From contig JAEUHH010000085.1 in assembly GCA_016795505.1 (NCBI GenBank), forward strand, positions 1 to 64,000: DNA of 64,000 bases. The letters are read 5' to 3'. Made by a program: the position numbers and the translations under genes. The stretch is from Verrucomicrobiales bacterium (GTDB lineage: Bacteria; Verrucomicrobiota; Verrucomicrobiia; Verrucomicrobiales; DEV007). A model generated the notes under the pieces. The model had not been told where the DNA came from. It searched no databases and was given only the letters and a program-made list of their open reading frames with translations. This document shows positions 28,534 to 50,913 of this stretch, in pieces (positions within the stretch are counted from its first letter, which is position 1; each line of letters opens with the position of its first letter).

Positions 28534-30747
28534 ATGATGAGAATGCGTTGTGTTTCCGTGCTGTTGATGTTGGCGGTGATGGGATCGGCTCGTGGTGAAA
28601 CCACGGTCGATGTCTCACCGGAAGTGGTGATCTGCGAGGTCGATCTCCCGCGTCTGCTCGGGACGAACGCGGGGCTGTGGTACACGCCGAGGCAATTGGA
28701 GGCTCTGCGCACGGGCGAGCGGCTGCGGGTGTGGCGTCCGGGGCTGATCCGCATCCCCGGCGGTTCGTGGGGGGATGAACTGGTCTGGAATGGCCACGGG
28801 GTCCGCCAGGGAAATTCGATCGACGTTTCGAAGTATGTGGACGGGCGGTGGCAGGTCGACTTTTCGGGCTATGCACCGGGTTTCCGAGCGGATGCGCGGG
28901 GCCGGCTTTCGGACTTTCACGGCCATGTCGATGTGAAGGCGATGCACGAGTTCATCCGCGACCTGGGGGGCTCGGCGATCGTGACGGTAAATGCGGGCAC
29001 GGGCACGCCGGAAATGGCGGCGGAGTGGGTGCGCTGGGCGAAGGCCAACGCCTATCCGGTGGCCTATTGGGAGATCGGCAATGAACTCGAGGGCGAATGG
29101 GAGCAGGGTCACCGACGTCCCGATGGCCGGGAAATGACGGGCGAGATCTACGCGGAAATCTATCTGGCTTTCGCGAAGGCGATGAAGGCGGTCGATCCCT
29201 CGATCAAGGTGGGTGGTCCGGCGGCGTCGAACGACGGCGTCGTGCTCGCGCCCGCATTGCTCAAGAAGGCGGCGGAGTGGGTCGATTTCATTTCCTACCA
29301 CACTTACCCGGCGAATTCGCACGAGGGCCCGGCGAAGCTGTTCGCGGAAGCGGACAGCGTGCGGCATGGCATGCAGAAGGTCCGCGAGTTGATCCGCGAG
29401 CATGCTCCGGCGCGGGCGGACGAGATCGAGATCGGCATCACCGAGTGGCATGTCGGCATTCACGAGGGCGCCCGCACGGTGAATGAGATCAGCGGTCCGT
29501 GGTGCGCGAAGTGGATCGGGCGGATGGCGGAATCGGGGGTGGATTTCGCGAATGTCTGGGACCTTTTCAGCGCGACGGCACAGGGTGGACACGGCGTGCT
29601 CGGCAAGGATGAATCGTTGACCCCGCGGGGCCCCTACTGGGCGCTGGCTCTGTGGCAGCAGGAGATGGGCGGCAGGCTGCTGCGCTGCGAGACGAGAGGA
29701 GCCGAGGGCGTGGTGGCTTTTGCAACGGCGACGGAGGGGGGCATGGCTTTGCTCTTGATCAACGAAAGCGAGGAATCGCCGGCCCCGGTCCGCGTGCAGA
29801 TCTCGGGTTCGCCGGTGGTGGGCACGTTGGAAGCACACGAGCTATCGACTTCGAGCTATCTCTGGAATTCCCGCACCAACGCGCCGGTGTGGAGCCGTCC
29901 GCCGGTGATGCGGTCGCACACGCTGGACAGGATGGGTGGGCTGATCCTGCCGGCACTGAGTGCGACCGTTCTGCATCTGAATCGCGCCGCGCCACCGATG
30001 GCGTCCGGGAGAACGGCACGGCTCGGCATTTTCGCTCCCGAGAGGCTGGCTGCCGACTTGCCCGGCGATGCTTGGATCACATTGCTTGATGCCTCCGGCA
30101 ATCCGGTCTTTGGCGGCGAGCACGGGGTGATGATCGAGACGACCGGTCCGATCGAGGTGGATAGGGCAATGCAGACGCTGCATCGCGCCGCGACGCGGGT
30201 GAGAGTGCGCCCCACCGGCGTCGGACGGGGCGAAATCATCGTGCGAGGCGCGGGGCTCGAGGCGAGGCACGGCATTGAACTGAAGAGGGTCTCGTGGCGA
30301 ACGGAGGTGCTCTGGAATTTCGCCCAAGCCGATTCCGTGAAGAAGCTGCAGTCGCCGCACACCCTTTCCCATCGCGAGGGCGCTCTGCATGTCGCGCTAA
30401 CGCCCGTGGAAGGAAATCGGCTGGTCGTTTTCAACGAACTGCCGGCTTGTGACAAGTCGAAGATCGGAGGCTTCACCGTGAAACTCCGCGCGGAGGGGCT
30501 GGAGGCGCCCGCGGAAGGAAAGATCGGCGTCGTGCTGCAAAGCAAGGCCCGCCAGTGGATGCCACTCGGCGAAATCCCGCTCGCGGACCTCACGGACGGC
30601 TGGAGCACCCGCGAATTGAAAGTGCCCGATCCCGACTACCTCGATGCGATGCCGGACGTGTATGCGGTGATCCTGCTGCTCCAGGGCGCAGGTGATGCCG
30701 GCGGCGCACTCGCGATCGACGACGCCGGATTCCTGATGCGGGATTGA
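28534..30747 (+). CDS. Secreted clan GH-A glycoside hydrolase (arabinofuranosidase/xylosidase-like)
   Basis: A 737-residue protein with a signal peptide from ATG 28534 (preceded by GGAAGAA; a second ATG follows). The first 430 residues are a TIM barrel with the acid/base motif YWEIGNELEG and a nucleophile region IGITEWHVG, the hallmarks of clan GH-A families such as GH39 and GH51. The rest has a beta-sandwich and a C-terminal carbohydrate-binding-like region (LAIDDAGFLMR). It heads a run of three sulfatases and likely cleaves a sulfated or branched polysaccharide. The family number cannot be given without a search. Confidence 0.8.
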   Translation: MMRMRCVSVLLMLAVMGSARGETTVDVSPEVVICEVDLPRLLGTNAGLWYTPRQLEALRTGERLRVWRPGLIRIPGGSWGDELVWNGHGVRQGNSIDVSKYVDGRWQVDFSGYAPGFRADARGRLSDFHGHVDVKAMHEFIRDLGGSAIVTVNAGTGTPEMAAEWVRWAKANAYPVAYWEIGNELEGEWEQGHRRPDGREMTGEIYAEIYLAFAKAMKAVDPSIKVGGPAASNDGVVLAPALLKKAAEWVDFISYHTYPANSHEGPAKLFAEADSVRHGMQKVRELIREHAPARADEIEIGITEWHVGIHEGARTVNEISGPWCAKWIGRMAESGVDFANVWDLFSATAQGGHGVLGKDESLTPRGPYWALALWQQEMGGRLLRCETRGAEGVVAFATATEGGMALLLINESEESPAPVRVQISGSPVVGTLEAHELSTSSYLWNSRTNAPVWSRPPVMRSHTLDRMGGLILPALSATVLHLNRAAPPMASGRTARLGIFAPERLAADLPGDAWITLLDASGNPVFGGEHGVMIETTGPIEVDRAMQTLHRAATRVRVRPTGVGRGEIIVRGAGLEARHGIELKRVSWRTEVLWNFAQADSVKKLQSPHTLSHREGALHVALTPVEGNRLVVFNELPACDKSKIGGFTVKLRAEGLEAPAEGKIGVVLQSKARQWMPLGEIPLADLTDGWSTRELKVPDPDYLDAMPDVYAVILLLQGAGDAGGALAIDDAGFLMRD

Positions 30748-30806
30748 ATGACGGACCCTCGAAATCTTTTCAGGCAAATGATGCGGGGGCCGGCAGTGAT
30801 TCCCAG

Positions 30807-32234
30807 ATGCCCATGAGACTGCTCCAAATCATTTTCTTCCTGATCATCTGCGGCTCTCTGAACGCGCAGACGAAACCGAACGTCCTCTTCATCCTCGTGG
30901 ATGACTTCGGCTCGCGCGATCTGGGCTGCTACGGCTCGTCGCTGTATGAAACGCCGAACATGGATCGACTGGCCGCGAGCGGGGCACGACTCACCCAGGC
31001 CTACGTCGCCTATCCGCGCTGCGTGCCGTCGCGCTTCGGGATCTTCACCGGCAAACACCCCGCACGGGTGCAGGGCGAGAAAGACAGTCCGCATGTCGAG
31101 CCCGGTCGCGATGCCACGATCGGCGAAGCCTTCGCGGCGGCCGGATACCAGACCTTTTACTGTGGCAAGTGGCACCTCGGCGAAGGCGCCTCCCATCCCG
31201 ATCAGGTCGGATTCACCACCTCGGTGGCGGCGGGTGCGGCCGGTGCGGCCCGCTCGCATTTTGCGCCCTACAATGTGTCCAAAGGAAAAGGCGGGCACGA
31301 GGAAAAAGACGCCATCACCGGCCTCGATGACGCGCCCGAAGGCGAATACCTGACCGACCGCCTCACCGAGGAGACGATGAAATTCATCGAGGCGAACAGG
31401 GATCAACCGTTCTGCGCGGTGCTCGCCCACTACGCCGTCCACACGCCGATCGAGGGCAAGAAGCACCTGACGAAACGCTACGAGGAAAAGCTCGCCACCC
31501 TGCCCAAGGCGGCGATCGAGTGGGAAAAGGAAAGTGCCGGGGAGAACCTGCTGGTGCAGAACAACGCCACCTACGCCGCGATGATCGAGAGCGTGGACAA
31601 CGGCGTCGGGCGCCTTCTCAACCAGCTCCAGAAACTCGGCATCGCGGACCACACCATCGTCATCCTCGCGAGCGACCATGGCGGGCTCAGCGCGCGCGGC
31701 AACAACCGTGGCGTCGCCACCTCGAACCGTCCGCTCCGGGCCGGCAAAGGGCACCTCTACGAGGGCGGCCTGCGCATCCCGATGCTGTTGCGCTGGCCCG
31801 GTGCCGTGAAAGCGGGTACGACGATCGACACGCCCGTCAGCACGCTCGACCTGATGCCCACGCTCGCCGCGATGGCCGGCATCGCTCTGCCGGAAAAGGC
31901 GGGCACCGACGGGCGGAATCTCGTGCCTCTGCTCCAGGGAGGCGCGGCTCCGGCGCGTGACGCCTTTTTCTGGCACAATCCGTCGCCGCGCCCCGGCAGC
32001 ACCGGCGATCTCTTTTCCTCCGCGATCCGCGAGGGCGACCTGAAGCTGATCGATTTCCCCGCCGAGAAACGGATCGAACTCTACGACCTCGCCGCCGATC
32101 CCGGCGAAGCCAATAACCTCGCCGACTCAAAGCCGGAAGATCGCGACCGGCTCCTCGCCAAACTCAACGCCTGGCGTCGCGAGGTCGGCGCCTCCATCGA
32201 GCCCAAAGCCGTGAAGCCGAAAGCGAACCGCTGA
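30807..32234 (+). CDS. Sulfatase (formylglycine-dependent), first of three
   Basis: A 475-residue alkaline-phosphatase-superfamily sulfatase with a signal peptide from ATG 30807. The metal-binding DDFGSRDLGCYG near the N-terminus and the modification motif CVPSR (Cys72 is converted to formylglycine) are intact, and KWHLG and SDHGG supply further active-site residues. CxPSR sulfatases are matured by formylglycine-generating enzyme. It follows the glycosidase by 59 bp and probably removes sulfate esters from the same polysaccharide; the exact position attacked is unknown. Confidence 0.92.
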   Translation: MPMRLLQIIFFLIICGSLNAQTKPNVLFILVDDFGSRDLGCYGSSLYETPNMDRLAASGARLTQAYVAYPRCVPSRFGIFTGKHPARVQGEKDSPHVEPGRDATIGEAFAAAGYQTFYCGKWHLGEGASHPDQVGFTTSVAAGAAGAARSHFAPYNVSKGKGGHEEKDAITGLDDAPEGEYLTDRLTEETMKFIEANRDQPFCAVLAHYAVHTPIEGKKHLTKRYEEKLATLPKAAIEWEKESAGENLLVQNNATYAAMIESVDNGVGRLLNQLQKLGIADHTIVILASDHGGLSARGNNRGVATSNRPLRAGKGHLYEGGLRIPMLLRWPGAVKAGTTIDTPVSTLDLMPTLAAMAGIALPEKAGTDGRNLVPLLQGGAAPARDAFFWHNPSPRPGSTGDLFSSAIREGDLKLIDFPAEKRIELYDLAADPGEANNLADSKPEDRDRLLAKLNAWRREVGASIEPKAVKPKANR

Positions 32235-32288
32235 TGATGGCGCTCTGTGAGTCCCTCATTTCTGTCCAAAGCTCCCAACCATCTGATC

Positions 32289-33932
32289 ATGCGCCTGATT
32301 CTCTCCGCTCTCTCTCTTGCCATCGTCGCTCCCCTGTCCGCGGCCGACCGACCCAACATCCTCTTCATCGCCGTCGATGACTTGAAGCCGATGATGGGTT
32401 GTTACGGCGACAAAACCATCCTCACCCCGAATCTCGACCGCCTCGCCGCGCGCGGCACCGTCTTTCTCAACGCCCACACCCAGCAGGCGGTGTGCGGTCC
32501 CTCGCGGGCCAGTCTGCTCACCGGCCTGAGACCCGACACCACCAAGGTCTACGACCTGAAGACGCGCATCCGCTCCGTCCTGCCCGATGTGGTCACCCTG
32601 CCGCAGCATTTCCGTCAGGCGGGATACGAGACCATCGGCATGGGCAAGATTTTCGACCCGCGCAGTGTCGATGGGCGCAAGGAAGACGACCCCGCCTCGT
32701 GGAGCCGCCCCTACATCCACACCGACGGCAAGGGCGGCGTGGCCGGCTTCCTCAATCCCGATTTCGTCGCCCGTGCCACCAACATCATGAAGGAAAAGGG
32801 CATCCGACCCGGCGACACCGACGCCCTGAAAGAGGCGCTCGGCGGTTTCCCGCCCACCGAGGGCGAAGATGTGCCCGACGCGGCCTATGAAGACGGCGAA
32901 CTGGCCGACGCAGCCGTCGCCCAGGTGCGGGAACTCGCCTCGCGGGACGAGCCCTTCTTTCTGGCCGTCGGCTTTCACAAACCACACCTGCCTTTCGTCG
33001 CGCCCAAGAAATACTGGGACCTCTACGACCGTGATCAGATCGATCTCGCCGAGTTCACCACCTTGCCGACCGGCGCTCCAGGGATCGCTTTTCAGGATTC
33101 CAACGAATTGAAGAACGGCAGCTACCAGCGCGACCTCATTCCCAAAGGTCCCGGGCTCTTGCCCGAGCCCGTGCAGAGGCAGCTCATCCACGGCTACATG
33201 GCCTGCGTCTCCTACGTGGACGCCCAGGTCGGCAAGTTGCTCGACGCGCTCGATGCCAGCCCCGCCGCGCAGGACACCATCATCGTCCTCTGGGGCGATC
33301 ACGGTTTCCACCTCGGCGATCACGGCATGTGGTGCAAACACACCAATTACGAGCAGGCCACCCGCGTGCCGCTCCTCTTCGCCCGTCCCGGCCAAGCGGG
33401 CGCCGGCGGCCGCAGCCAGTCCCCGGTCGAATTTCTCGACATTTATCCCACCCTCTGCGACCTCGCCGGACTGCCCATCCCCGCCGTGTTGCAAGGCACC
33501 AGCCTCGTGCCCATCCTCGATGATCCCAAAGCCAGTGTGAAACCCGCGGCCCGGTCCCAATACCCGCGCGGCTCGGAGAAATCCCCCGTCATGGGCTACG
33601 CTTGGCGCGACGAGCGATACCGCTACGTCCAGTGGATCGACAGCCGCCAGCCCGGATCCGCACCCGTCGCGGCGGAACTCTATGACTACGAGACCGACCC
33701 CGGCGAGACCCGCAACCTCGTCTCCGATCCCGCCCATGCCGACACCCTCGCGCGCTTCGAGAAACTGGCCGCCGCCACCGAAAAAGATCCGACGCCTCCG
33801 GCCAAATCGGCTCCGCCTGCCAAGAAGGCTCAGACCGCGAAACCGAAAGCCGCCTACGATCCCAACGAACCCCGCGACCAGCGCTACGACCGGCTGTTTC
33901 CGGGAAAAGCGAAGGTCTCCTACGAGGAATAG
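32289..33932 (+). CDS. Sulfatase, iduronate-2-sulfatase-like, second of three
   Basis: 547 residues with signal peptide. N-terminal DDLKPMMGCYG, modification motif CGPSR (Cys69), KIFDPRSVDG, HKPHLPF and WGDHGFHLGDHG match the iduronate-2-sulfatase type. The frame ends at a TAG at 33930-33932. The same frame then continues for 36 sense codons into a complete EF-hand to a TGA at 34041-34043, so the tail has been cut off by one codon. Gap to the previous sulfatase is 54 bp. Confidence 0.9.
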   Translation: MRLILSALSLAIVAPLSAADRPNILFIAVDDLKPMMGCYGDKTILTPNLDRLAARGTVFLNAHTQQAVCGPSRASLLTGLRPDTTKVYDLKTRIRSVLPDVVTLPQHFRQAGYETIGMGKIFDPRSVDGRKEDDPASWSRPYIHTDGKGGVAGFLNPDFVARATNIMKEKGIRPGDTDALKEALGGFPPTEGEDVPDAAYEDGELADAAVAQVRELASRDEPFFLAVGFHKPHLPFVAPKKYWDLYDRDQIDLAEFTTLPTGAPGIAFQDSNELKNGSYQRDLIPKGPGLLPEPVQRQLIHGYMACVSYVDAQVGKLLDALDASPAAQDTIIVLWGDHGFHLGDHGMWCKHTNYEQATRVPLLFARPGQAGAGGRSQSPVEFLDIYPTLCDLAGLPIPAVLQGTSLVPILDDPKASVKPAARSQYPRGSEKSPVMGYAWRDERYRYVQWIDSRQPGSAPVAAELYDYETDPGETRNLVSDPAHADTLARFEKLAAATEKDPTPPAKSAPPAKKAQTAKPKAAYDPNEPRDQRYDRLFPGKAKVSYEE

Positions 33933-34043
33933 GCCGCTTCACAGAGCGGCGATCCGGCCGCCATCCGGGAACGCTTCGCGAAACAGGACAAAAACAGCGA
34001 CGGCTTCGTGACCCGCGAGGAATTCATCGGGAAAGCGAAGTGA
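33933..34043 (+). pseudogene. EF-hand tail of the second sulfatase, separated by an in-frame amber codon
   Basis: The 36 codons after TAG 33930-33932, without any frame change, encode RERFAKQDKNSDGFVTREEF and GKAK before TGA. DKNSDGFVTREE is a canonical calcium-binding EF loop (DxNxDGxxxxxE). EF-hand tails are common on sulfatases of this phylum, so the tail was probably once part of the protein. Either readthrough, a recent nonsense mutation or a sequencing error explains the TAG. Confidence 0.75.
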
Positions 34044-34089
34044 AAGGCCGCGACTTCCCCGTCATCCTTGCATTCTTCCGTCACACCCC

Positions 34090-35676
34090 ATGCGACCTGC
34101 CATCCTCTTCGCCCTCTGCCTCGCCGCGCCGATCCTCCGCGCCGCCGAGCGACCGAATGTCGTGTTTCTCGTCACCGACGATCAGTTCAAGTCGATGATG
34201 AACTTCTATCCCGAAGGCAACGGCAAGAACCTCACGCCCAACACCGATGCCCTCGCCGCCGAGGCGACGGTGATGGACCGGCTGTATGTCACCTCGCCCG
34301 TCTGCACCCCGAGCCGCTACGCCGCCCTCACCGGACTGTATCCGAGCCGGTCGCAGTCCAAAAAATTCACCCAGTCCACCCGTCAGGCCGGCGGCCAGAC
34401 CGTCGTGCAATGGAACACCTTCATCACCGGTGAGGTCAGCGCCCTGCCCCGGAAATTCCGCGAAGCCGGTTACTTCACCGGCATGGTCGGGAAGAACCAC
34501 GCCTTCGAGGCCGACGGCTGGGAGATGCCTAGGTGGGAGTCCGATCCCAAACACGCCGAGGTGCGGGCCCTGCTCGAGCGCAACCGGCTCGCCCAAGTCG
34601 CCGCCGCGCGTGCCATCGGCTTCGATTTCGCCGCCAGCCTCTACTACAACAACCCGGTCGAGAACGGCGTGAAAGCCCTCGCCGCGCACAACCTCGACTG
34701 GATCGCGAAAGGCGCGATCGACTTCATCGATGCCGCCGGCGACCGGCCCTTTTTCCTCTACCTCGCCACCACCGTGCCGCATGGTCCACAGGAGGCCGGG
34801 CGCAGTTGGGATGCCGATCGCCGCATCACCGCCGACGGCCTGCTGGACGAGCCCTTGACCGTCCTGCCAGGCCGGGAGACTTACGCCCCGCGACTGCAAG
34901 CCGCCCGCATCCGGTCGCCGCAGAAAGAAAATCTCCTCTGGCTCGACGACATGATCGGAGCCCTCGTGGACAAGCTCCGTAGCGCCGGCAAACTCGAGAA
35001 TACCGTCCTGCTCTACTTCAACGACCACGGTCAGAAATCCAAGGGCACCCTCTACGAAGGCGGCGTGCACGGCGAGAGTTTCATCTGGAGGAAAGGCGGC
35101 TTTCCCGCCGGCAAGCGCAGCTCCGTGCCCGTGTCGAACGTCGATTTCGCCCCCACCCTGCTAGACCTCGCCGGGATCGCCTACGACGCCGAGGAATTCG
35201 ACGGCAGGAGCTTCGCGCCCGTGCTCCTCGGCACGTCAGCGCAACGCACCGAGCCGCTCTTCTTCGAACTCGGCTACGTCCGCGGCGTGATCCACGAGGG
35301 CTGGAAATACCTTGCCCTGCGTTATCCCGAAAAGGCGAAATCCATGACCCGCGAGGAGCGCCAGCGCATCCTCGACGAATTCAACGCCGAACAGCGGCGC
35401 AAGGGTCGGCCCGTTCACAACACCGATCCCATGGCCGGATTCAGCCACGTCCTCCTCATCCCCGGCGGTGGCGACGCCGAGCAGGCGAGCATGGGAGCCT
35501 ACCCGGCCTTTTATGACGCCGATCAGCTCTATGATCTGGAGACGGATCCATCCGAGCAATCGAATCTCGCGAAACTCCCCGAGCACGCCGGAAAACTCGC
35601 GGCACTGAAGCGCCTGCTACAAGACCATCTGGCCAAGATGCCGGGGACCTTCGCGGAGTTGAAGGCGGCGAAGTGA
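34090..35676 (+). CDS. Sulfatase, third of three
   Basis: A 528-residue protein with signal peptide (MRPAILFALCLAAPILRAAE). It has TDDQFKSMMNFY metal ligands, CTPSR (Cys72) for formylglycine formation, MVGKNH and NDHGQKSK. DHG is kept but the context differs from the first two sulfatases, so a different linkage specificity is likely. 46 bp separate it from the interrupted EF-hand segment, and all genes from 26621 to 36298 run in the same direction. Confidence 0.92.
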   Translation: MRPAILFALCLAAPILRAAERPNVVFLVTDDQFKSMMNFYPEGNGKNLTPNTDALAAEATVMDRLYVTSPVCTPSRYAALTGLYPSRSQSKKFTQSTRQAGGQTVVQWNTFITGEVSALPRKFREAGYFTGMVGKNHAFEADGWEMPRWESDPKHAEVRALLERNRLAQVAAARAIGFDFAASLYYNNPVENGVKALAAHNLDWIAKGAIDFIDAAGDRPFFLYLATTVPHGPQEAGRSWDADRRITADGLLDEPLTVLPGRETYAPRLQAARIRSPQKENLLWLDDMIGALVDKLRSAGKLENTVLLYFNDHGQKSKGTLYEGGVHGESFIWRKGGFPAGKRSSVPVSNVDFAPTLLDLAGIAYDAEEFDGRSFAPVLLGTSAQRTEPLFFELGYVRGVIHEGWKYLALRYPEKAKSMTREERQRILDEFNAEQRRKGRPVHNTDPMAGFSHVLLIPGGGDAEQASMGAYPAFYDADQLYDLETDPSEQSNLAKLPEHAGKLAALKRLLQDHLAKMPGTFAELKAAK

Positions 35677-43744: not shown

Positions 43745-46700
43745 ATGAAAATGATCGACCTATACCGGAAACCCGAATCACTGGACTGCGAAGCACTCGA
43801 GCCGCGCGTGCTTTTCTCTGGCGCCCCGGTGGAGCCCGCTGAAGCAGAAGCCGCCGATACTCAGGCGCCCGCGCAGGACGCCGCCGAATCGACCGAGGCC
43901 ACCAGCGCCGAGGCTCCCGCTGAGGCCAGCGTATCCGGTGAGGCAGCCGCGACTCTCGTCAACACGGGCTCGGCTACGCTGAATGAGGAAACCCTCGCCG
44001 CCATCGCCGAAGCAGCCAAACAGCGCTGGATCGACTCGGGTATCTCGGCCGAGCAGTTGGATGCGTTGAACTCGGTGACCTACCAGATTTCCGACTTGAA
44101 CAGCAATGCCTTGGGCAAGGCCGAAGGTTTCACCATCACGATCGATGACAATGCCGCGGGTCAGGGCTGGTTCATCGACGCCACGCCAGATCTGGACGAA
44201 GAGTTTTCGCTGACGGGCGGCCGGCTTTTGGGCATTTCGTCGGGCGCCGACACCGGGATCGACCTCCTCACCCTCGTCATGCACGAGCAGGGACACATCC
44301 TTGGCCTCGCCGATTCGGTGTCTGGCACCACCAATGTCATGTCAGGCATCCTGAATGTGGCCGAGCGCCGCGCCGCCGCCGAAGGGCAGGCTCTGGGCCT
44401 GACTCCGGCGACCCTCAGCGGGGAAAACTTTGCTCTGACCACCGCCGCCATCGTGGGGAACACCCTGAGCATCGTGGGCGACGCCGCTACCGACAATCTC
44501 GTGCTGCGCATCAACGCGGGGAACTTCGAATACGACCTCAACAGCGGCGGCTTCATCATCATCGGCGCAGTGGCCGGCGTGAACACCATCGACATCGACA
44601 TGGGTGGCGGCTCGGACAGCGTCACCCTGCAGGCCATGACGGTGAATGCCGATCTGATCGTGAGCACCACCTCCCTCACCATCGCTGGTGCGGTCGACAT
44701 CAGCGGCGCAACCACGCCGTCTGCGGAGATCACCGCCGACCGTCTGCTGATCAGCGCCGCCCTCAACACGGGCGCAACCGGCTCGGTGACGTTTGTCCCG
44801 CTCACAGGTGGCAATGTGAAGGATTTCCACCTCGGCTCGGCCGGCGATGCCTTCGACAACGCCATCAGGCTTTCCAATGCTGAAATCGCCAACATCACCG
44901 CCGGCTCGATCGTCATCGGTGACACAAACACCCGTCAGGTGGATGTGCTGGGCGACATCACGCTGGTGGCCAACACGGAATTTGTGACGTGGTCCAGCGG
45001 ATTGGTGAACCTGAACCGCCGCATCAACGGCGCCTTCGATCTGGAGATCACCAGCGGTGGCACCACGGTGGCGCGGCCTCCCGGCTTGGGTGGGATCGGC
45101 ACGATCACTCCCCTCGATACGATCGTGACTGACGCGGGCGGCTCCACTCGCCTCCAGGACGATGCGGTCATCATCACCACCGGCGACCAGACTTACAATG
45201 ACTTTGTCCGCGTGGGCGATTCAACGAACTCCGTCGGTCAGGCCAACCTGACGGCCAACAGCGTCAATTTCTCGGCCACCACCACTTTCCGGGTCGATAT
45301 CGATGGTGACGCCGGCGTCGGCGTGGCGGGCGGTCATGATCAACTCGTCGTCAATGGCGATGTGGATCTCGGCGGCGCGACTCTGGAGGTCGATTTTGGC
45401 TCGTTCGTGCCCGTGGTCGGCCAAACCTACGTGATCATCGACAATACGGGCCCGAATGCCGTCACCGGCACCTTCGACGGGCTGCCGGAAGGCACCGTCT
45501 CCAGTTCTCCCTTCGGTTCGACGGCGATGCTTTACTCGATCAGCTACATCGGCGGTGATGGCAACGATGTGGAGATCACCCTGCTCGGCGAGCCGGAGAC
45601 TCTGATCACCCAGAATTCCATCACCGACATGATCACCGTCGAGGATATCAACGGTGGAATCACGAACGACGAACTTTCCGTCTATGTGGACGGCACTGAT
45701 CTGGTCATCGAAGACGCCAACGAGACGGTCTCCTCGAACATCGTCGGAGCCGTGCAGGACGGCGCCAACCGCATCCGCATCCCGCTGGCCCTCGTGACCG
45801 GTGGACTCACCATCAATACCCTCGCCGGCGACGACACCGTCAATATCGGCAATATCGCCACCCTCAGCGGCGGCAATCTCATCGTGAATGGCGGGGCGGA
45901 CGAGGACCGGATCAACCAGACCGGCGATGTCGTGATGAGCGGCAGCCGCTCGGTGACTTACACGGCCGAGGCCATCAAGCTCTCGGTCGGCGCCAGCATC
46001 ACGACGGCGACGGGTGGCATCACGCTGACCGGCTCGGGCGCCACCAGCCTCGTCGGCAATGTACCCGGCGTGTGGTTGCAGGGAGCGTCGCTGAGCAGCA
46101 CCTCGGGCAACATTCTCCTCACCGGTCAGGGCGGCGACACCGACCATTACAACGACGGCGTCCGCCTCAACCGCGCCGACACGCCGCTGACCGACAGTTC
46201 CATCACGACGGGCGGCACGATCACACTGAACGGCACGGCGGGCGCCGGCATCAGCAGCTCCGGAGTCCACATCGCCCACGCCACCATCTCGGCCACGGGC
46301 GGCAGCGGCAGCACGCTCACCATCAACGGCACCGGCAGCGATGACGGCAACAATGGAAACGGCGTCTATCTCTTCGGAGCGACCCTGTCCACCAGCAATG
46401 GCGCGGCCACGCTCCGGGGCACGGGCGGCTCGACCAACTCCTACAACTACGGGGTGGTGTTCTTCAGCGGATCGTCGGTAGCGACCGGCGGCTCCGGCGC
46501 CCTGACCATCGAGGGCACCGGCGGCGGCAGCATCGGCCTGAGCCCGGGTGTCGCCCTCATCAACGGCTCCAGCGCCACCGTGGTCAATGGAGCCATGAAT
46601 ATTCGCGGCACCGGCGGAAACGGCACCGGCAACCAGAATCGCGGGGTCGCCCTCCACAGCCTCGTTAATGTCTCGGCCTCCGGCACTGGCACCATCACCA

Positions 46701-47413
46701 TCAACGGTACCGGCCGCGGCAGCGGCAGCGACAACGGCGGCGTGCTCCTCGACGGCGCCACGGTCAGTTCCACCAACGCGCTGACCATTTCCGGCACCGG
46801 CTCCACCACTGGAACGCATTACAGCGAAGGAATCGATGCCATCAACTCGTCCAGCATCAGCACCGGCACCGGTCTCCTCACCCTGACTGGCACGGCCAAT
46901 GGCAGCGGCCGTTACAACCGGGGCATCAATCTGAACAAGTCCACTGTGCAGAGCACCAGTGGCGACATTGCGATCACTGGAGTGGGCTCGGCGTCATCCA
47001 CGCTGAACTACAACCAGGGCATCTTCTCGCAGGGTTCCTCCATCACGACCGGCGGCAAGATCACGCTGTCAGGCACCGGCGGAGCCGGCACGTCGAACAA
47101 TCACGGCATCCATCTGCACTCCACCACGGCGGCCTCCACGGGCGCCCTGAAGATCACTGGCAGAGCCCTCGCCGGCACCACCGGCACGCTGAACTGTGGC
47201 GTTTATCTGACCAACCTCGCCAGCCTCACCGGGGCGGGCGGCGGTCTCAGCACCGTCACCGGCACCGGCGGTGGTGGCACGGGCAAGAATCATGGCATCC
47301 TCATGAACAAGGACGTCAGTGTGAGCGGCCTCGTCACCGGCAACTTCGTCGGCACTGCCGGCGCGGGCACCGGCAGCCTCGCCCGCGCGGGCACGCATCC
47401 GTTCTTCAACTGA
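43745..47413 (+). CDS. LEPR-XLL exported repeat protein with metzincin-like zinc motif
   Basis: The 1222-residue protein opens with LDCEALEPRVLFSGAP, the LEPR-XLL signature found at the N-terminus of large exported proteins in Planctomycetes and Verrucomicrobia. A globular region at about 80-240 holds HEQGHILGLAD at 180-190, matching the HExxHxxGxx(H/D) metzincin motif with aspartate as third ligand, so a zinc peptidase may be present. From about 300 the chain becomes glycine/threonine-rich, and from about 640 it consists of ITGTG...NHGI repeats like those of the gene at 1-1083. It is secreted or surface-bound; a protease plus adhesin role is inferred. Confidence 0.85.
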   Translation: MKMIDLYRKPESLDCEALEPRVLFSGAPVEPAEAEAADTQAPAQDAAESTEATSAEAPAEASVSGEAAATLVNTGSATLNEETLAAIAEAAKQRWIDSGISAEQLDALNSVTYQISDLNSNALGKAEGFTITIDDNAAGQGWFIDATPDLDEEFSLTGGRLLGISSGADTGIDLLTLVMHEQGHILGLADSVSGTTNVMSGILNVAERRAAAEGQALGLTPATLSGENFALTTAAIVGNTLSIVGDAATDNLVLRINAGNFEYDLNSGGFIIIGAVAGVNTIDIDMGGGSDSVTLQAMTVNADLIVSTTSLTIAGAVDISGATTPSAEITADRLLISAALNTGATGSVTFVPLTGGNVKDFHLGSAGDAFDNAIRLSNAEIANITAGSIVIGDTNTRQVDVLGDITLVANTEFVTWSSGLVNLNRRINGAFDLEITSGGTTVARPPGLGGIGTITPLDTIVTDAGGSTRLQDDAVIITTGDQTYNDFVRVGDSTNSVGQANLTANSVNFSATTTFRVDIDGDAGVGVAGGHDQLVVNGDVDLGGATLEVDFGSFVPVVGQTYVIIDNTGPNAVTGTFDGLPEGTVSSSPFGSTAMLYSISYIGGDGNDVEITLLGEPETLITQNSITDMITVEDINGGITNDELSVYVDGTDLVIEDANETVSSNIVGAVQDGANRIRIPLALVTGGLTINTLAGDDTVNIGNIATLSGGNLIVNGGADEDRINQTGDVVMSGSRSVTYTAEAIKLSVGASITTATGGITLTGSGATSLVGNVPGVWLQGASLSSTSGNILLTGQGGDTDHYNDGVRLNRADTPLTDSSITTGGTITLNGTAGAGISSSGVHIAHATISATGGSGSTLTINGTGSDDGNNGNGVYLFGATLSTSNGAATLRGTGGSTNSYNYGVVFFSGSSVATGGSGALTIEGTGGGSIGLSPGVALINGSSATVVNGAMNIRGTGGNGTGNQNRGVALHSLVNVSASGTGTITINGTGRGSGSDNGGVLLDGATVSSTNALTISGTGSTTGTHYSEGIDAINSSSISTGTGLLTLTGTANGSGRYNRGINLNKSTVQSTSGDIAITGVGSASSTLNYNQGIFSQGSSITTGGKITLSGTGGAGTSNNHGIHLHSTTAASTGALKITGRALAGTTGTLNCGVYLTNLASLTGAGGGLSTVTGTGGGGTGKNHGILMNKDVSVSGLVTGNFVGTAGAGTGSLARAGTHPFFN

Positions 47414-47633: not shown

Positions 47634-48902
47634 ATGATCGTTCCCAGCCTGCAGTTCGCCGCCCGCACTCTCCGCAGCGCGGACAAACGCCACCTCGCCA
47701 AGTTCGTCTGGAATTTCGGCGTCAAAGGTGTCCGCTCGGTGAACCTCTTCAAAAAGCGCCTCCGCCAGGGCATCCATTTCCCCCCCTTCCTCTACCTCTC
47801 CATCCTCAACAGTTGCAACCTGCGCTGCCAGGGCTGCTGGGTGGATGTCGACAAGCCCCAGGTGAAGATCGACCTGGAGCAGCTCAACACCCTGGTCAAC
47901 GATGCCAAGGCCCACGGGAACAGCTTCTTCGGCATCCTCGGCGGCGAGCCCTTCATGCACCCGGAATTGCTGGACTTCCTCGCCCAGCATCCCGATTGCT
48001 TCTTTCAGGTCTTCACGAATGGCCAGCTCATCACCGAGAAAAAGGCGGAACAGCTCCGCCAGATCGGCAACGCCACTCCGCTCGTGTCCATCGAGGGCAC
48101 CGAACTGGTCGCCAACGAGCGCCGGGGCGGCAAGGATGTGCTCAACCGCACCCTGCGCGGACTCGACAACTGCCTGCGGGCCCGTCTCCTCACCGGCGTG
48201 GCCACCAGCCTGTGCCAGACGAACATCGACGACCTGCTCACCGAGAAATGGCTGCGCTCACTGATCGATCGCGGCGTCCACTACGCGTGGTACCACACCT
48301 ACCGGCCCGTCGGCCCCCAGATCCATGAGGAACTCGCCCTCACCCCCGAGCAGGCGCGCCGGGTGCGGCAATTCGTCGTCGACATGCGGGTGAAACTGCC
48401 GCTCGGCATCATCGACGCCTATTATGACGGCGAAGGCCGGGCCCTCTGCCCCATGGCCACCGGCATATCTCATCACATTTCGCCAACCGGCGCCGTGGAG
48501 CCCTGTCCCATTCTCCAGTTTGCCACCGAAAACATCCGCGACCGGGGTATCTACGAGACGCTGACGCAGTCACAGTTCCTCAAGGATTTCCGCGAGACGG
48601 CCGCCCGCCACACCCGCGGCTGCATAGTTCTGGAGCGGCCCGACCTGGTCAAGGAACTGGCCGAAAAGCATGGCGCCCGCGATACCACCCTGCGCCAGAC
48701 GGCGATGACCGAGATCGAGTCGATGACGCCCCGCAACAGCCAGTGGCTGCCCACCGGCGAGGAGATTCCGGAAAAGCATCCCGTTTACCGCTGGGCGAAG
48801 CGGATCTGGTTCAACGATTTCGGCGTTTACCAGAATCTCGACGCCTCCGCCGCTCCCAGAGCCCATTCCCGGCCCACCGAACCCGCCGGAGCCCCCCGCT
48901 GA
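47634..48902 (+). CDS. Radical SAM protein
   Basis: A 422-residue enzyme with the S-adenosylmethionine radical cluster motif CNLRCQGC (Cys61, 65, 68), GGEPFMHPE and a TIM-barrel-like body. Near the end PCPILQFA and RGCIVLERPDL hold further cysteines that could bind a second cluster, shorter than a full SPASM domain. It is followed by a HdrA-like small protein (34 bp gap) and a double [4Fe-4S] protein (8 bp gap), so electrons for the radical reaction may come from them. Substrate unknown. Confidence 0.87.
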   Translation: MIVPSLQFAARTLRSADKRHLAKFVWNFGVKGVRSVNLFKKRLRQGIHFPPFLYLSILNSCNLRCQGCWVDVDKPQVKIDLEQLNTLVNDAKAHGNSFFGILGGEPFMHPELLDFLAQHPDCFFQVFTNGQLITEKKAEQLRQIGNATPLVSIEGTELVANERRGGKDVLNRTLRGLDNCLRARLLTGVATSLCQTNIDDLLTEKWLRSLIDRGVHYAWYHTYRPVGPQIHEELALTPEQARRVRQFVVDMRVKLPLGIIDAYYDGEGRALCPMATGISHHISPTGAVEPCPILQFATENIRDRGIYETLTQSQFLKDFRETAARHTRGCIVLERPDLVKELAEKHGARDTTLRQTAMTEIESMTPRNSQWLPTGEEIPEKHPVYRWAKRIWFNDFGVYQNLDASAAPRAHSRPTEPAGAPR

Positions 48903-48936
48903 CACCCCCGCCCCACCGATTGCCCCTACTCCCAGG

Positions 48937-49272
48937 ATGCCCAAGATCCTCTACTGCCGCTGCGCCTTTGCCCAAGTCGTGCCCCAGGCCACCAAGGACG
49001 CCGTCCTCGAGCGCCTCTGCGCCTCTGGCACCAGCTTTGAGACCGTCGCTGACCTCTGCGAGATGGCCGCGCGCCGGGACGAACGCCTGACCGGTCTGCT
49101 GGACAGCGACGAACCCGTCAAAATCGCCGCCTGCTACCCCCGCGCCGTGAAATGGCTGTTCCACAATGCCGGCGTCCCCTTTCCCGCCGATGATCCCGAC
49201 CGGATCGAGGTGCTCAACATGCGCGAGCAGACCGCCGACGCCATCGCCGACGCCCTGATCGACCAACCCTGA
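48937..49272 (+). CDS. Small HdrA-like protein
   Basis: A 111-residue protein with CRC near the N-terminus, a C in LERLCASG and CEMAAR, and AACYPRAVKWLF followed by VLNMREQTAD. The last two blocks resemble the AACSPR...NIREQ segment of heterodisulfide reductase subunit A, which contacts an iron-sulfur or flavin site. It is far shorter than HdrA and lacks a flavin domain. As the middle gene of the radical SAM/ferredoxin trio it may relay electrons; this is inferred. Confidence 0.65.
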   Translation: MPKILYCRCAFAQVVPQATKDAVLERLCASGTSFETVADLCEMAARRDERLTGLLDSDEPVKIAACYPRAVKWLFHNAGVPFPADDPDRIEVLNMREQTADAIADALIDQP

Positions 49273-49280
49273 TTCCACCG

Positions 49281-50177
49281 ATGAAGACCGAGACCCTGCC
49301 CTTCCAAGTCGTCCTCTACGAAGGTGACGGCGCCCAACCCCTCGCCCCCGGAGATCGCTTTGCCGTATTGAGCCTGCTCCTCGACAAAGGCTATGCCGTG
49401 CGGCGAGTCGCCGGCCCCGGACAGACGACTGCCCCGGACCTCCCCTCGCCCGCCATCCCGCTCATCGTCATCGGCGATTTCGGCGGAGCCGCCCCCGTGC
49501 TCGAGGATGCCGCCGGCCGGGTCTCCATCGCCACCCACGACATCGGCGGTCTGGCTCCCGATGCGGTGCTCGATCTGATCGAACAGGGTCGGATCGGCGA
49601 TCAAAGAGGGTTGAATCAGCCCGGCGCCCCCGGCATGTGGAAGCCATGGTTCCCGGTGATCGATTACGACCGCTGCACGAACTGCATGCAGTGCCTCAGC
49701 TTTTGCCTGTTCGATGTTTACGGCGTGGATGAGAAACAGAAAATCCAGGTCAAGAATCAGGACAACTGCAAGACCAACTGCCCCGCCTGCTCCCGGGTCT
49801 GCCCCGAGGTGGCCATCATGTTCCCGAAGTATGCCGCCGGCCCGATCAATGGCGACGTGGTCAACCAGGCCGACGTGCAGCGTGAGAAGATGAAGGTGGA
49901 CATCAGTTCCCTGCTCGGCGGCGACATTTACTCCCGGCTGCGCGACCGCAGTGATGCGGCCAAGTCGCGTTTTTCCAAAGAACGCAGCCCCGACAAAGCC
50001 CTGGAGGAGCGGAAAAAGTGCCTGGTGAAACTCCAGCAGAGCGGCATCATACCGGCCGAGGTGCTCGCCGAGTTGGACTTGTCGTCACTGCCATCGCCCG
50101 AGGAAATCCAACGCCGGGCTGCCGAAGCCAACGCCCGGGCCCAGGCCGCCCGCGAGGCAGCCGCGGGAATGGCTTGA
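49281..50177 (+). CDS. Double [4Fe-4S] ferredoxin protein with N-terminal domain
   Basis: The 298-residue protein has an N-terminal domain of about 95 residues (VIGDFGGAAPVLED, VSIATHDIGG), then a linker encoded by a 22-bp-period repeat, then ferredoxin motifs CTNCMQCLSFC (Cys132, 135, 138, 142) and CKTNCPACSRVC (163, 167, 170, 174). The C-terminal ~90 residues are helical and charged, with SPDKALEERKKCLVKLQQ. It is coupled to the small HdrA-like gene by 8 bp. An electron-transfer role for the radical SAM enzyme is likely. Confidence 0.85.
   Translation: MKTETLPFQVVLYEGDGAQPLAPGDRFAVLSLLLDKGYAVRRVAGPGQTTAPDLPSPAIPLIVIGDFGGAAPVLEDAAGRVSIATHDIGGLAPDAVLDLIEQGRIGDQRGLNQPGAPGMWKPWFPVIDYDRCTNCMQCLSFCLFDVYGVDEKQKIQVKNQDNCKTNCPACSRVCPEVAIMFPKYAAGPINGDVVNQADVQREKMKVDISSLLGGDIYSRLRDRSDAAKSRFSKERSPDKALEERKKCLVKLQQSGIIPAEVLAELDLSSLPSPEEIQRRAAEANARAQAAREAAAGMA
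49573..49620. repeat. 22-bp-period dispersed repeat, copy F (inside the ferredoxin gene)
   Basis: On the minus strand ACCCTCTTTGATCGCCGATC is followed 22 bp later by ACCCTGTTCGATCAG. It encodes LIEQGRIGDQRGLNQPG, in the linker between the N-terminal domain and the iron-sulfur domain. Confidence 0.82.
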
Positions 50178-50208: not shown

Positions 50209-50913
50209 ATGAGATTCACCTTTCCCGCTCTAGCCCTTCTACTCTGCCTGCCGGCCGCCGTGGCCGCCGATCCGGCTGCCCCCGCACCGAAAGCCGCAGC
50301 ACTCCACCTGACGTTCGAGTTCGTCGAGGTCCCGCTGGCCGACTGGGGCGCTTGGATTTCAGAAAACCCGCTCCGGGTCGATGCCTCGCCCCTCTACCAG
50401 ACCGTCGGGGAGTGGAAAAAGGCGGGCAAAGCCAGCCTCATCGAGATCGTGAGCGTCCAGGGACGCAGCGGCCAACGGTGCAAGGCCGAATCGATCACCG
50501 AAATCACCTACCCGACGGATTTTCAACCCGCGAAGATTCCGGAGACCCTTTCCCAGATCCATAATCTGGTCGAAAGCCCCTCCACCACGATCCACCCGGA
50601 AGGCTTCGAGACCCGCAACGTCGGTGTGACCGTCGAAGTCGACCCGGTCATCTCCGGCGATGGGAAAACGGTCGATTTGAACCTGTCTCCCGAGATCGTG
50701 CGCGAACTCGGCACCGATGCCTGGCCCAATGACGAGGTCGAAGCCCGTCACCGCGCCGAGACACCGCGTTTTTACACCGCCAAGATCACCTCGCAGATCG
50801 TGGCCGAACCCGGCAAACCCACTCTGGTCGGCACGGTGCGCCTGCCCGGAGCGAATGAGGGCGCTCCGGGACAAACGGTGGTCCTGGTCTTCGCCAAGGT
50901 CGATCTCGGCTGA
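50209..50913 (+). CDS. Secreted protein with secretin-like strand motif
   Basis: A 234-residue protein with a signal peptide (MRFTFPALALLLCLPAAVAA). The segment FETRNVGVTVEVDPVISGDG resembles the RxVGxxLxVxP strand pair of the secretin (type II/III secretion, type IV pilus) gate domain, and PRFYTAKITSQIVAEPG with TVRLPG the following strands. It lacks the rest of a secretin and cannot itself form a pore, so it may be a periplasmic partner or a decayed relative. Gap to the ferredoxin gene is 31 bp. Confidence 0.65.
   Translation: MRFTFPALALLLCLPAAVAADPAAPAPKAAALHLTFEFVEVPLADWGAWISENPLRVDASPLYQTVGEWKKAGKASLIEIVSVQGRSGQRCKAESITEITYPTDFQPAKIPETLSQIHNLVESPSTTIHPEGFETRNVGVTVEVDPVISGDGKTVDLNLSPEIVRELGTDAWPNDEVEARHRAETPRFYTAKITSQIVAEPGKPTLVGTVRLPGANEGAPGQTVVLVFAKVDLG

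Follow-up and report, generated by a model that had tools for sequence, protein, structure and literature searches.

The locus studied here raises the question of what a radical SAM enzyme, a small protein with HdrA-like cysteines and a two-cluster ferredoxin do together, and with which other genes they work. The three genes lie in a 64,000-nucleotide stretch of DNA from a Verrucomicrobiales bacterium, analysed as a whole and called the window below. A sequence-only reading of this DNA had singled them out as tightly spaced, and the open reading frames were found as claimed: all three are on the + strand, with gaps of 34 bp between the radical SAM gene and the small gene, and 8 bp between the small gene and the ferredoxin gene (Table 1).

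Table 1. Trio genes with their positions in the window, partner genes of the larger conserved set, and other features mentioned in the text.
Feature	Position	Strand	Description
Radical SAM enzyme (rSAM)	47634..48902	+	422 aa; CNLRCQGC at 61-68; invariant C272, C291, C330
HdrA-N-like protein	48937..49272	+	111 aa; four invariant cysteines: CxC at 7/9, C41, C66
Ferredoxin (Fd)	49281..50177	+	298 aa; cysteine-free alpha/beta N-terminal domain ~1-115, dicluster [4Fe-4S] domain ~120-185, conserved C-terminal tail
GcvH-like carrier			larger set; GcvH domain (Pfam)
CobW-type GTPase			larger set; typed by Pfam
DUF116PPS			larger set; DUF116 + polyprenyl synthetase fusion (Pfam)
PT			larger set; 291 aa, half-size, prenyltransferase-fold (Pfam)
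SHC			larger set; squalene-cyclase-like with DXDDT motif (Pfam)
Cysteine desulfurase-like			larger set, often present; class V aminotransferase (Pfam); S-T/S-G-x-A-C motif in 15/16
ORF past the ferredoxin	window 50209-50913
Repeat-rich protein	window 43745-47413
Three neighbouring ORFs	window 30744-35676
p70	L177:4632-4844; L049:13547-13759; L173:6773-6985
Gene string beside the operon	L234:8328-11898; L238:4182-7958

Products of the three genes

The first gene product belongs to the radical SAM superfamily, as had been read from the sequence: it scores 51.2 bits against Pfam PF04055 (cut-off 29.5), and the CxxxCxxC cysteines of the cluster motif are kept among 53 aligned homologues (C61 in 52, C65 and C68 in all 53). 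C272, C291 and C330, which are likewise invariant in 53/53, are possible ligands of an auxiliary Fe-S cluster; the SPASM domain PF13186 scores 15.3 bits, under its cut-off of 21.5. The best NCBIfam match is the haloarchaeal pseudo-SAM protein, followed by NirJ/AhbC-type models, all far under their cut-offs. Indeed, the AhbC/NirJ models score the enzyme at 48-62 bits against cut-offs of 500-650, and, in a further difference from those systems, no tetrapyrrole genes were noticed in the conserved set.

The third product is the two-cluster ferredoxin that had been proposed, with 4Fe-4S Pfam families above cut-off and eight invariant cysteines in the dicluster domain. Its predicted model shows an alpha/beta N-terminal domain without cysteines, at a mean pLDDT of 63 overall and with the ferredoxin part poorly modelled. 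We considered whether this N-terminal domain repeats the HdrA-like domain without its cysteines, and rejected the idea: profile comparison gave only 1.6% probability, and the structural matches of the model were to generic folds of the alpha/beta receiver type, with HdrA absent among the matches listed.

The nature of the small protein is less straightforward. The cysteines of its CxC, C, C pattern are invariant in 23 close and 22 wider homologues, and its predicted model is confident (pLDDT 93). The N-terminal Fe-S domain of methanogen HdrA carries the same cysteine pattern, and is like the small protein in size, apparently in fold, and in its pairing with ferredoxin domains. With 111 residues and no family found in a Pfam search, however, the small protein lacks the flavin-binding thioredoxin-reductase domain of a complete HdrA, and stands alone without a flavin domain. 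In addition, its four invariant cysteines lie within its own chain, whereas the HdrA cluster also draws one cysteine from the other subunit (PMC9012536). When the model was compared with HdrA N-domain chains, 103-104 of the 111 residues aligned with Z of 5.8-7.0, values equalled by PurE and other unrelated Rossmann-type folds. The NCBIfam HdrA model matched 4 of the 23 members of the small-protein family, weakly (best E 0.001), and profile searches of the PDB with profiles A1 and A6 did not find HdrA. The label "HdrA-like" from the sequence-only reading thus holds for the cysteine motif and the fold, with weak sequence similarity and unrelated folds at equal Z on the other side; judging by the model, HdrA is the likeliest, though not a proven, relative.

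The window holds other genes around the trio. An ORF that starts 31 bp past the ferredoxin gene weakly resembles secretins and in part matches the Amuc_1098 pilus protein family; it was left out of the set, a homologue having turned up at just one of 36 loci. A repeat-rich 1222-aa protein has an LEPRVL segment near its start and a weak matrixin match, and three neighbouring ORFs elsewhere in the window look sulfatase-like by eye.

Co-conservation of the trio and a larger gene set

Co-conservation of the three genes in other genomes, the check proposed along with the sequence-only reading, was borne out. The related genomes number 57, counting that of the window; 39 of them carry the ferredoxin, 38 the radical SAM enzyme and 37 the small protein. 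This last count, in which the homologues outside the window's genome share 54-77% identity with the window's protein, indicates that the observation is not due to chance. Of the 37 small-gene loci (36 in relatives plus the window), 29 have the ferredoxin gene directly after the small gene and 20 have the radical SAM gene directly before it, counts in which some of the misses are contig ends. A scan of named genomes yielded 304 relatives, of which the best 80 were examined. Nearly all of these 80 are titled Verrucomicrobiota or a subgroup, with Chthoniobacter flavus, Brevifollis gellanilyticus, Verrucomicrobium sp. and Prosthecobacter sp. among the carriers, and a ferredoxin gene was found at 72 and a radical SAM gene at 27 of the 80 loci. 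One locus is titled Phycisphaera (L113) and one Acidobacteria (L126), titles that do not establish kinship.

While the trio is thus a real, co-conserved unit, the reading that had treated it as such missed a larger conserved set with terpenoid-type genes (Table 1). These partners were found by gene calling and clustering around trio loci and were typed by Pfam; the neighbour clustering drew on 15 of the 80 named loci, and overlapping shadow-ORF clusters were dropped by eye. At locus L049, the genes follow one another in the order GcvH-CobW-rSAM-small-Fd-DUF116PPS-PT-SHC, with p70 and the desulfurase gene then on the other strand, all in about 10 kb. Complete or near-complete operons were also found at L126, L113 and L227, and the desulfurase-type cluster spans 18 genomes, mostly adjoining the GcvH-like or the cyclase gene. 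In the window's genome, the set is scattered over contigs C21 (DUF116PPS), C66 (SHC), C24 (GcvH-like), C17 (PT) and C56 (trio), so that linkage there rests on co-occurrence.

We scored seven genes (the trio with the GcvH-like, DUF116PPS, PT and SHC genes) over the 57 related genomes, dropping as weak both matches to the prenyl synthetase part only (37 of 43 genomes kept) and matches that were ordinary GcvH (34 of 53 genomes kept). All seven genes were present in 29 genomes and at least five in 36, with none in 14 and one to four in 7. Pairwise Fisher P values ranged from 4.6e-7 to 6e-13, ignoring the relatedness of the genomes. More telling than these values are three genera (g2, g4 and g18) in which set-carrying members stand alongside congeners (G021, G022, G029 and G027; 88-96% complete) that have none of the seven genes, or only SHC. 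Counting against a joint pathway, G005 (80% complete) and G008 (62%) carry PT and SHC without the other set genes, and G027 has the cyclase alone, without the trio.

The association extends deep into the phylum. In a phylum sample, a profile of the small protein found matches in 45/387 genomes, and 20 stretches were fetched from 19 of these 45. Beside the small-protein match lay the ferredoxin part in all 20, DUF116PPS in 17, the radical SAM gene in 15, PT in 13 and SHC in 9, several stretches ending at contig edges. In these distant Verrucomicrobiota, the genes mostly follow the order small/Fd-rSAM-DUF116PPS-PT-SHC, with identities of about 29-60%, and at 17/20 loci gene calling gave a single ORF for the small and ferredoxin parts. 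All twelve cysteines (4 + 8) are invariant in the fused proteins (16/16 aligned, the alignment having taken in 16 of the 20 fetched stretches), which would be enough for three [4Fe-4S] clusters. Of all the evidence for the small protein and the ferredoxin working as one relay beside the radical SAM enzyme, this fusion is the best. That the trio may feed low-potential electrons into a radical reaction, as suggested earlier, agrees with this anatomy and is supported by the fusion.

Further genes recur near the operon. The p70 gene, which adjoins that of the cyclase, encodes a conserved 70-aa protein without a Pfam family, and members of its cluster occur in 12 genomes. PQQ/BamB-type beta-propeller genes, which are common in Verrucomicrobiota, often adjoin the operon in distant members of the phylum (L228, L236, L237, L238, L241, L245, L246 and others): a loose motif scan flagged 11/20 loci, and two genes were confirmed by Pfam. 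At L234 and L238, a gene string that includes ferredoxin-type genes (Fer4 and Fer4_5 in L238) runs directly into the operon, to which it may supply electrons.

A candidate terpenoid-type pathway and its alternatives

Only ORFs within set length limits entered the alignments of the GcvH-like, CobW, radical SAM, SHC, PT, DUF116PPS and desulfurase proteins. SHC scores as a class II terpene cyclase (PF13243 127.5 bits, PF13249 76.5 bits), with DXDDT in 33/35, and the prenyl synthetase as a polyprenyl diphosphate synthase (PF00348 148 bits), with HDDxxD in 54/56 and the second DDxxD in 51/56; since these catalytic motifs are kept, both enzymes look active. To our knowledge, DUF116 has no known function; among 14 control genomes, it also occurs in Methanocaldococcus jannaschii and Methanosarcina acetivorans. 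The GcvH-like protein keeps its lysine motif FKAxSD in 37/38, and scores 66 bits against the glycine-cleavage GcvH model TIGR00527 (cut-off 115.85). Most set-carrying genomes have a second, more distant GcvH match (~27-39% identity), their ordinary GcvH being distinct from the GcvH-like protein.

We consider it slightly better than an even chance (roughly 0.55) that the trio provides the radical step, and the electrons for it, in a so far undescribed pathway to a cyclised polyprenoid, that is, a terpenoid-type pathway, common to many Verrucomicrobiota. From the gene set, the motifs, the co-occurrence, the gene order and the fusion, which are directly established, we infer the electron route, the terpenoid substrate and all of the chemistry. 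The ferredoxin would accept low-potential electrons and hand them on to the small protein, whose HdrA-N-type cluster would in turn reduce the [4Fe-4S] cluster of the radical SAM enzyme. SAM would then be cleaved, and the 5'-deoxyadenosyl radical would attack a terpenoid or carrier-bound precursor that the DUF116-polyprenyl synthetase, the half-size PT and the squalene-cyclase-like enzyme would supply. The GcvH-like protein could offer a lipoyl-type arm or carry an acylated intermediate, and the CobW GTPase and the cysteine desulfurase may serve metal or sulfur supply; that these three genes have no obvious role in a terpenoid route counts against the proposal. More tentatively, and more probably wrong than right, the set may form a conserved phylum-level pathway to a new cyclised polyprenoid lipid or cofactor, in which a dedicated three-cluster relay of HdrA-N domain and ferredoxin feeds the radical SAM enzyme, the intermediate sits on the lipoyl-type GcvH-like carrier and DUF116, fused to the prenyl synthetase, is a further Fe-S enzyme.

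The known system nearest to this proposal is that of HpnH (adenosylhopane synthase) and squalene-hopene cyclase, which likewise joins a radical SAM enzyme to a class II triterpene-cyclase-type enzyme in one pathway. The cyclase-like enzyme could accordingly cyclise squalene, and the radical SAM enzyme add a 5'-deoxyadenosyl group to the product, acting in the manner of HpnH without being HpnH. The retained DXDDT motif of the cyclase fits such a hopanoid elongation, as does the fact that the substrate of HpnH is a cyclised triterpene (PMC12583986). Squalene may indeed be the cyclase substrate, considering that a gene of the squalene/phytoene synthase family (SQS_PSY) lies no more than about 10 kb from a GcvH-like or cyclase gene in four genomes (G004, G005, G013 and G025, the last copy confirmed by Pfam); the family is found in 57/57 relatives, but these include genomes without the set. 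The radical SAM enzyme, however, reaches only 32.8 bits against HpnH (TIGR03470; cut-off 225), canonical HpnH is above cut-off in 0/57 related genomes, and SHC scores 115.7 bits against squalene-hopene cyclase (TIGR01507; cut-off 431.1), so that we rejected the trio as part of the HpnH route itself. Moreover, hopanoid elongation leaves the DUF116-polyprenyl synthetase, PT and GcvH-like genes unexplained, the set adding these, CobW and dedicated Fe-S proteins to the two enzymes of the known system. By analogy, the set may work like hopanoid elongation though it is not classed there; as an account of the locus, we regard this as unlikely.

A still less probable account places sulfur at the center: the GcvH-like protein, the desulfurase, the HdrA-like protein and the ferredoxin would handle sulfur as in Hdr-like sulfur oxidation, the radical SAM enzyme would insert it, and the terpenoid part would only anchor the product. 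Sulfur oxidisers do pair HdrA-like proteins with lipoate-binding GcvH-like proteins (LbpA; PMC6067878), and the lysine motif and separate identity of our GcvH-like protein, together with the position of the desulfurase genes, agree with this. The same paper gives LbpA two strictly conserved cysteines near the termini, some archaeal LbpAs excepted; no cysteine is conserved at 90% among our 38 aligned GcvH-like proteins. The set also differs from Hdr-like sulfur oxidation in having terpenoid genes and in that no HdrB, HdrC or lipoate-protein ligase was noticed by eye among its conserved neighbours. The radical SAM enzyme, with the pseudo-SAM and NirJ/AhbC-type models as its nearest matches at scores far under every cut-off, counts against this account as well.

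It is improbable that the product of the set is a modified isoprenoid quinone or another redox carrier of the membrane: the ferredoxin-type genes adjoining the operon in L234 and L238, and the apparent menaquinone genes (named by eye) near the operon in L128, would suit this, but such neighbours occur in few loci and are not prominent in the neighbour clustering. Least probable of all is a trio that acts as an independent radical SAM maturase of a peptide or metabolite in incidental terpenoid company, a view in keeping with the weak SPASM-type maturase matches and with the separation of trio and terpenoid genes in many Verrucomicrobiales, the window included, but at odds with an operon order kept across families and with the joint presence and absence of the set; nor was a precursor-peptide gene noticed, short of a dedicated search.

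Meaning for the Verrucomicrobiota

We found no description of this gene set in the open-access literature searched (DUF116; Verrucomicrobia terpenoid, hopanoid, triterpene and GcvH/CobW/desulfurase topics), nor in the accessible part of PMC8692599. If the terpenoid-type pathway proposed here is real, DUF116 and a stand-alone HdrA-type Fe-S domain would each gain a function, and a widely conserved lipid or cofactor of the Verrucomicrobiota, unnamed in the literature searched, would come to light. Considering that cultured strains (Chthoniobacter flavus, Brevifollis gellanilyticus and Verrucomicrobium sp.) carry genes of the set, the pathway would be open to experiment.
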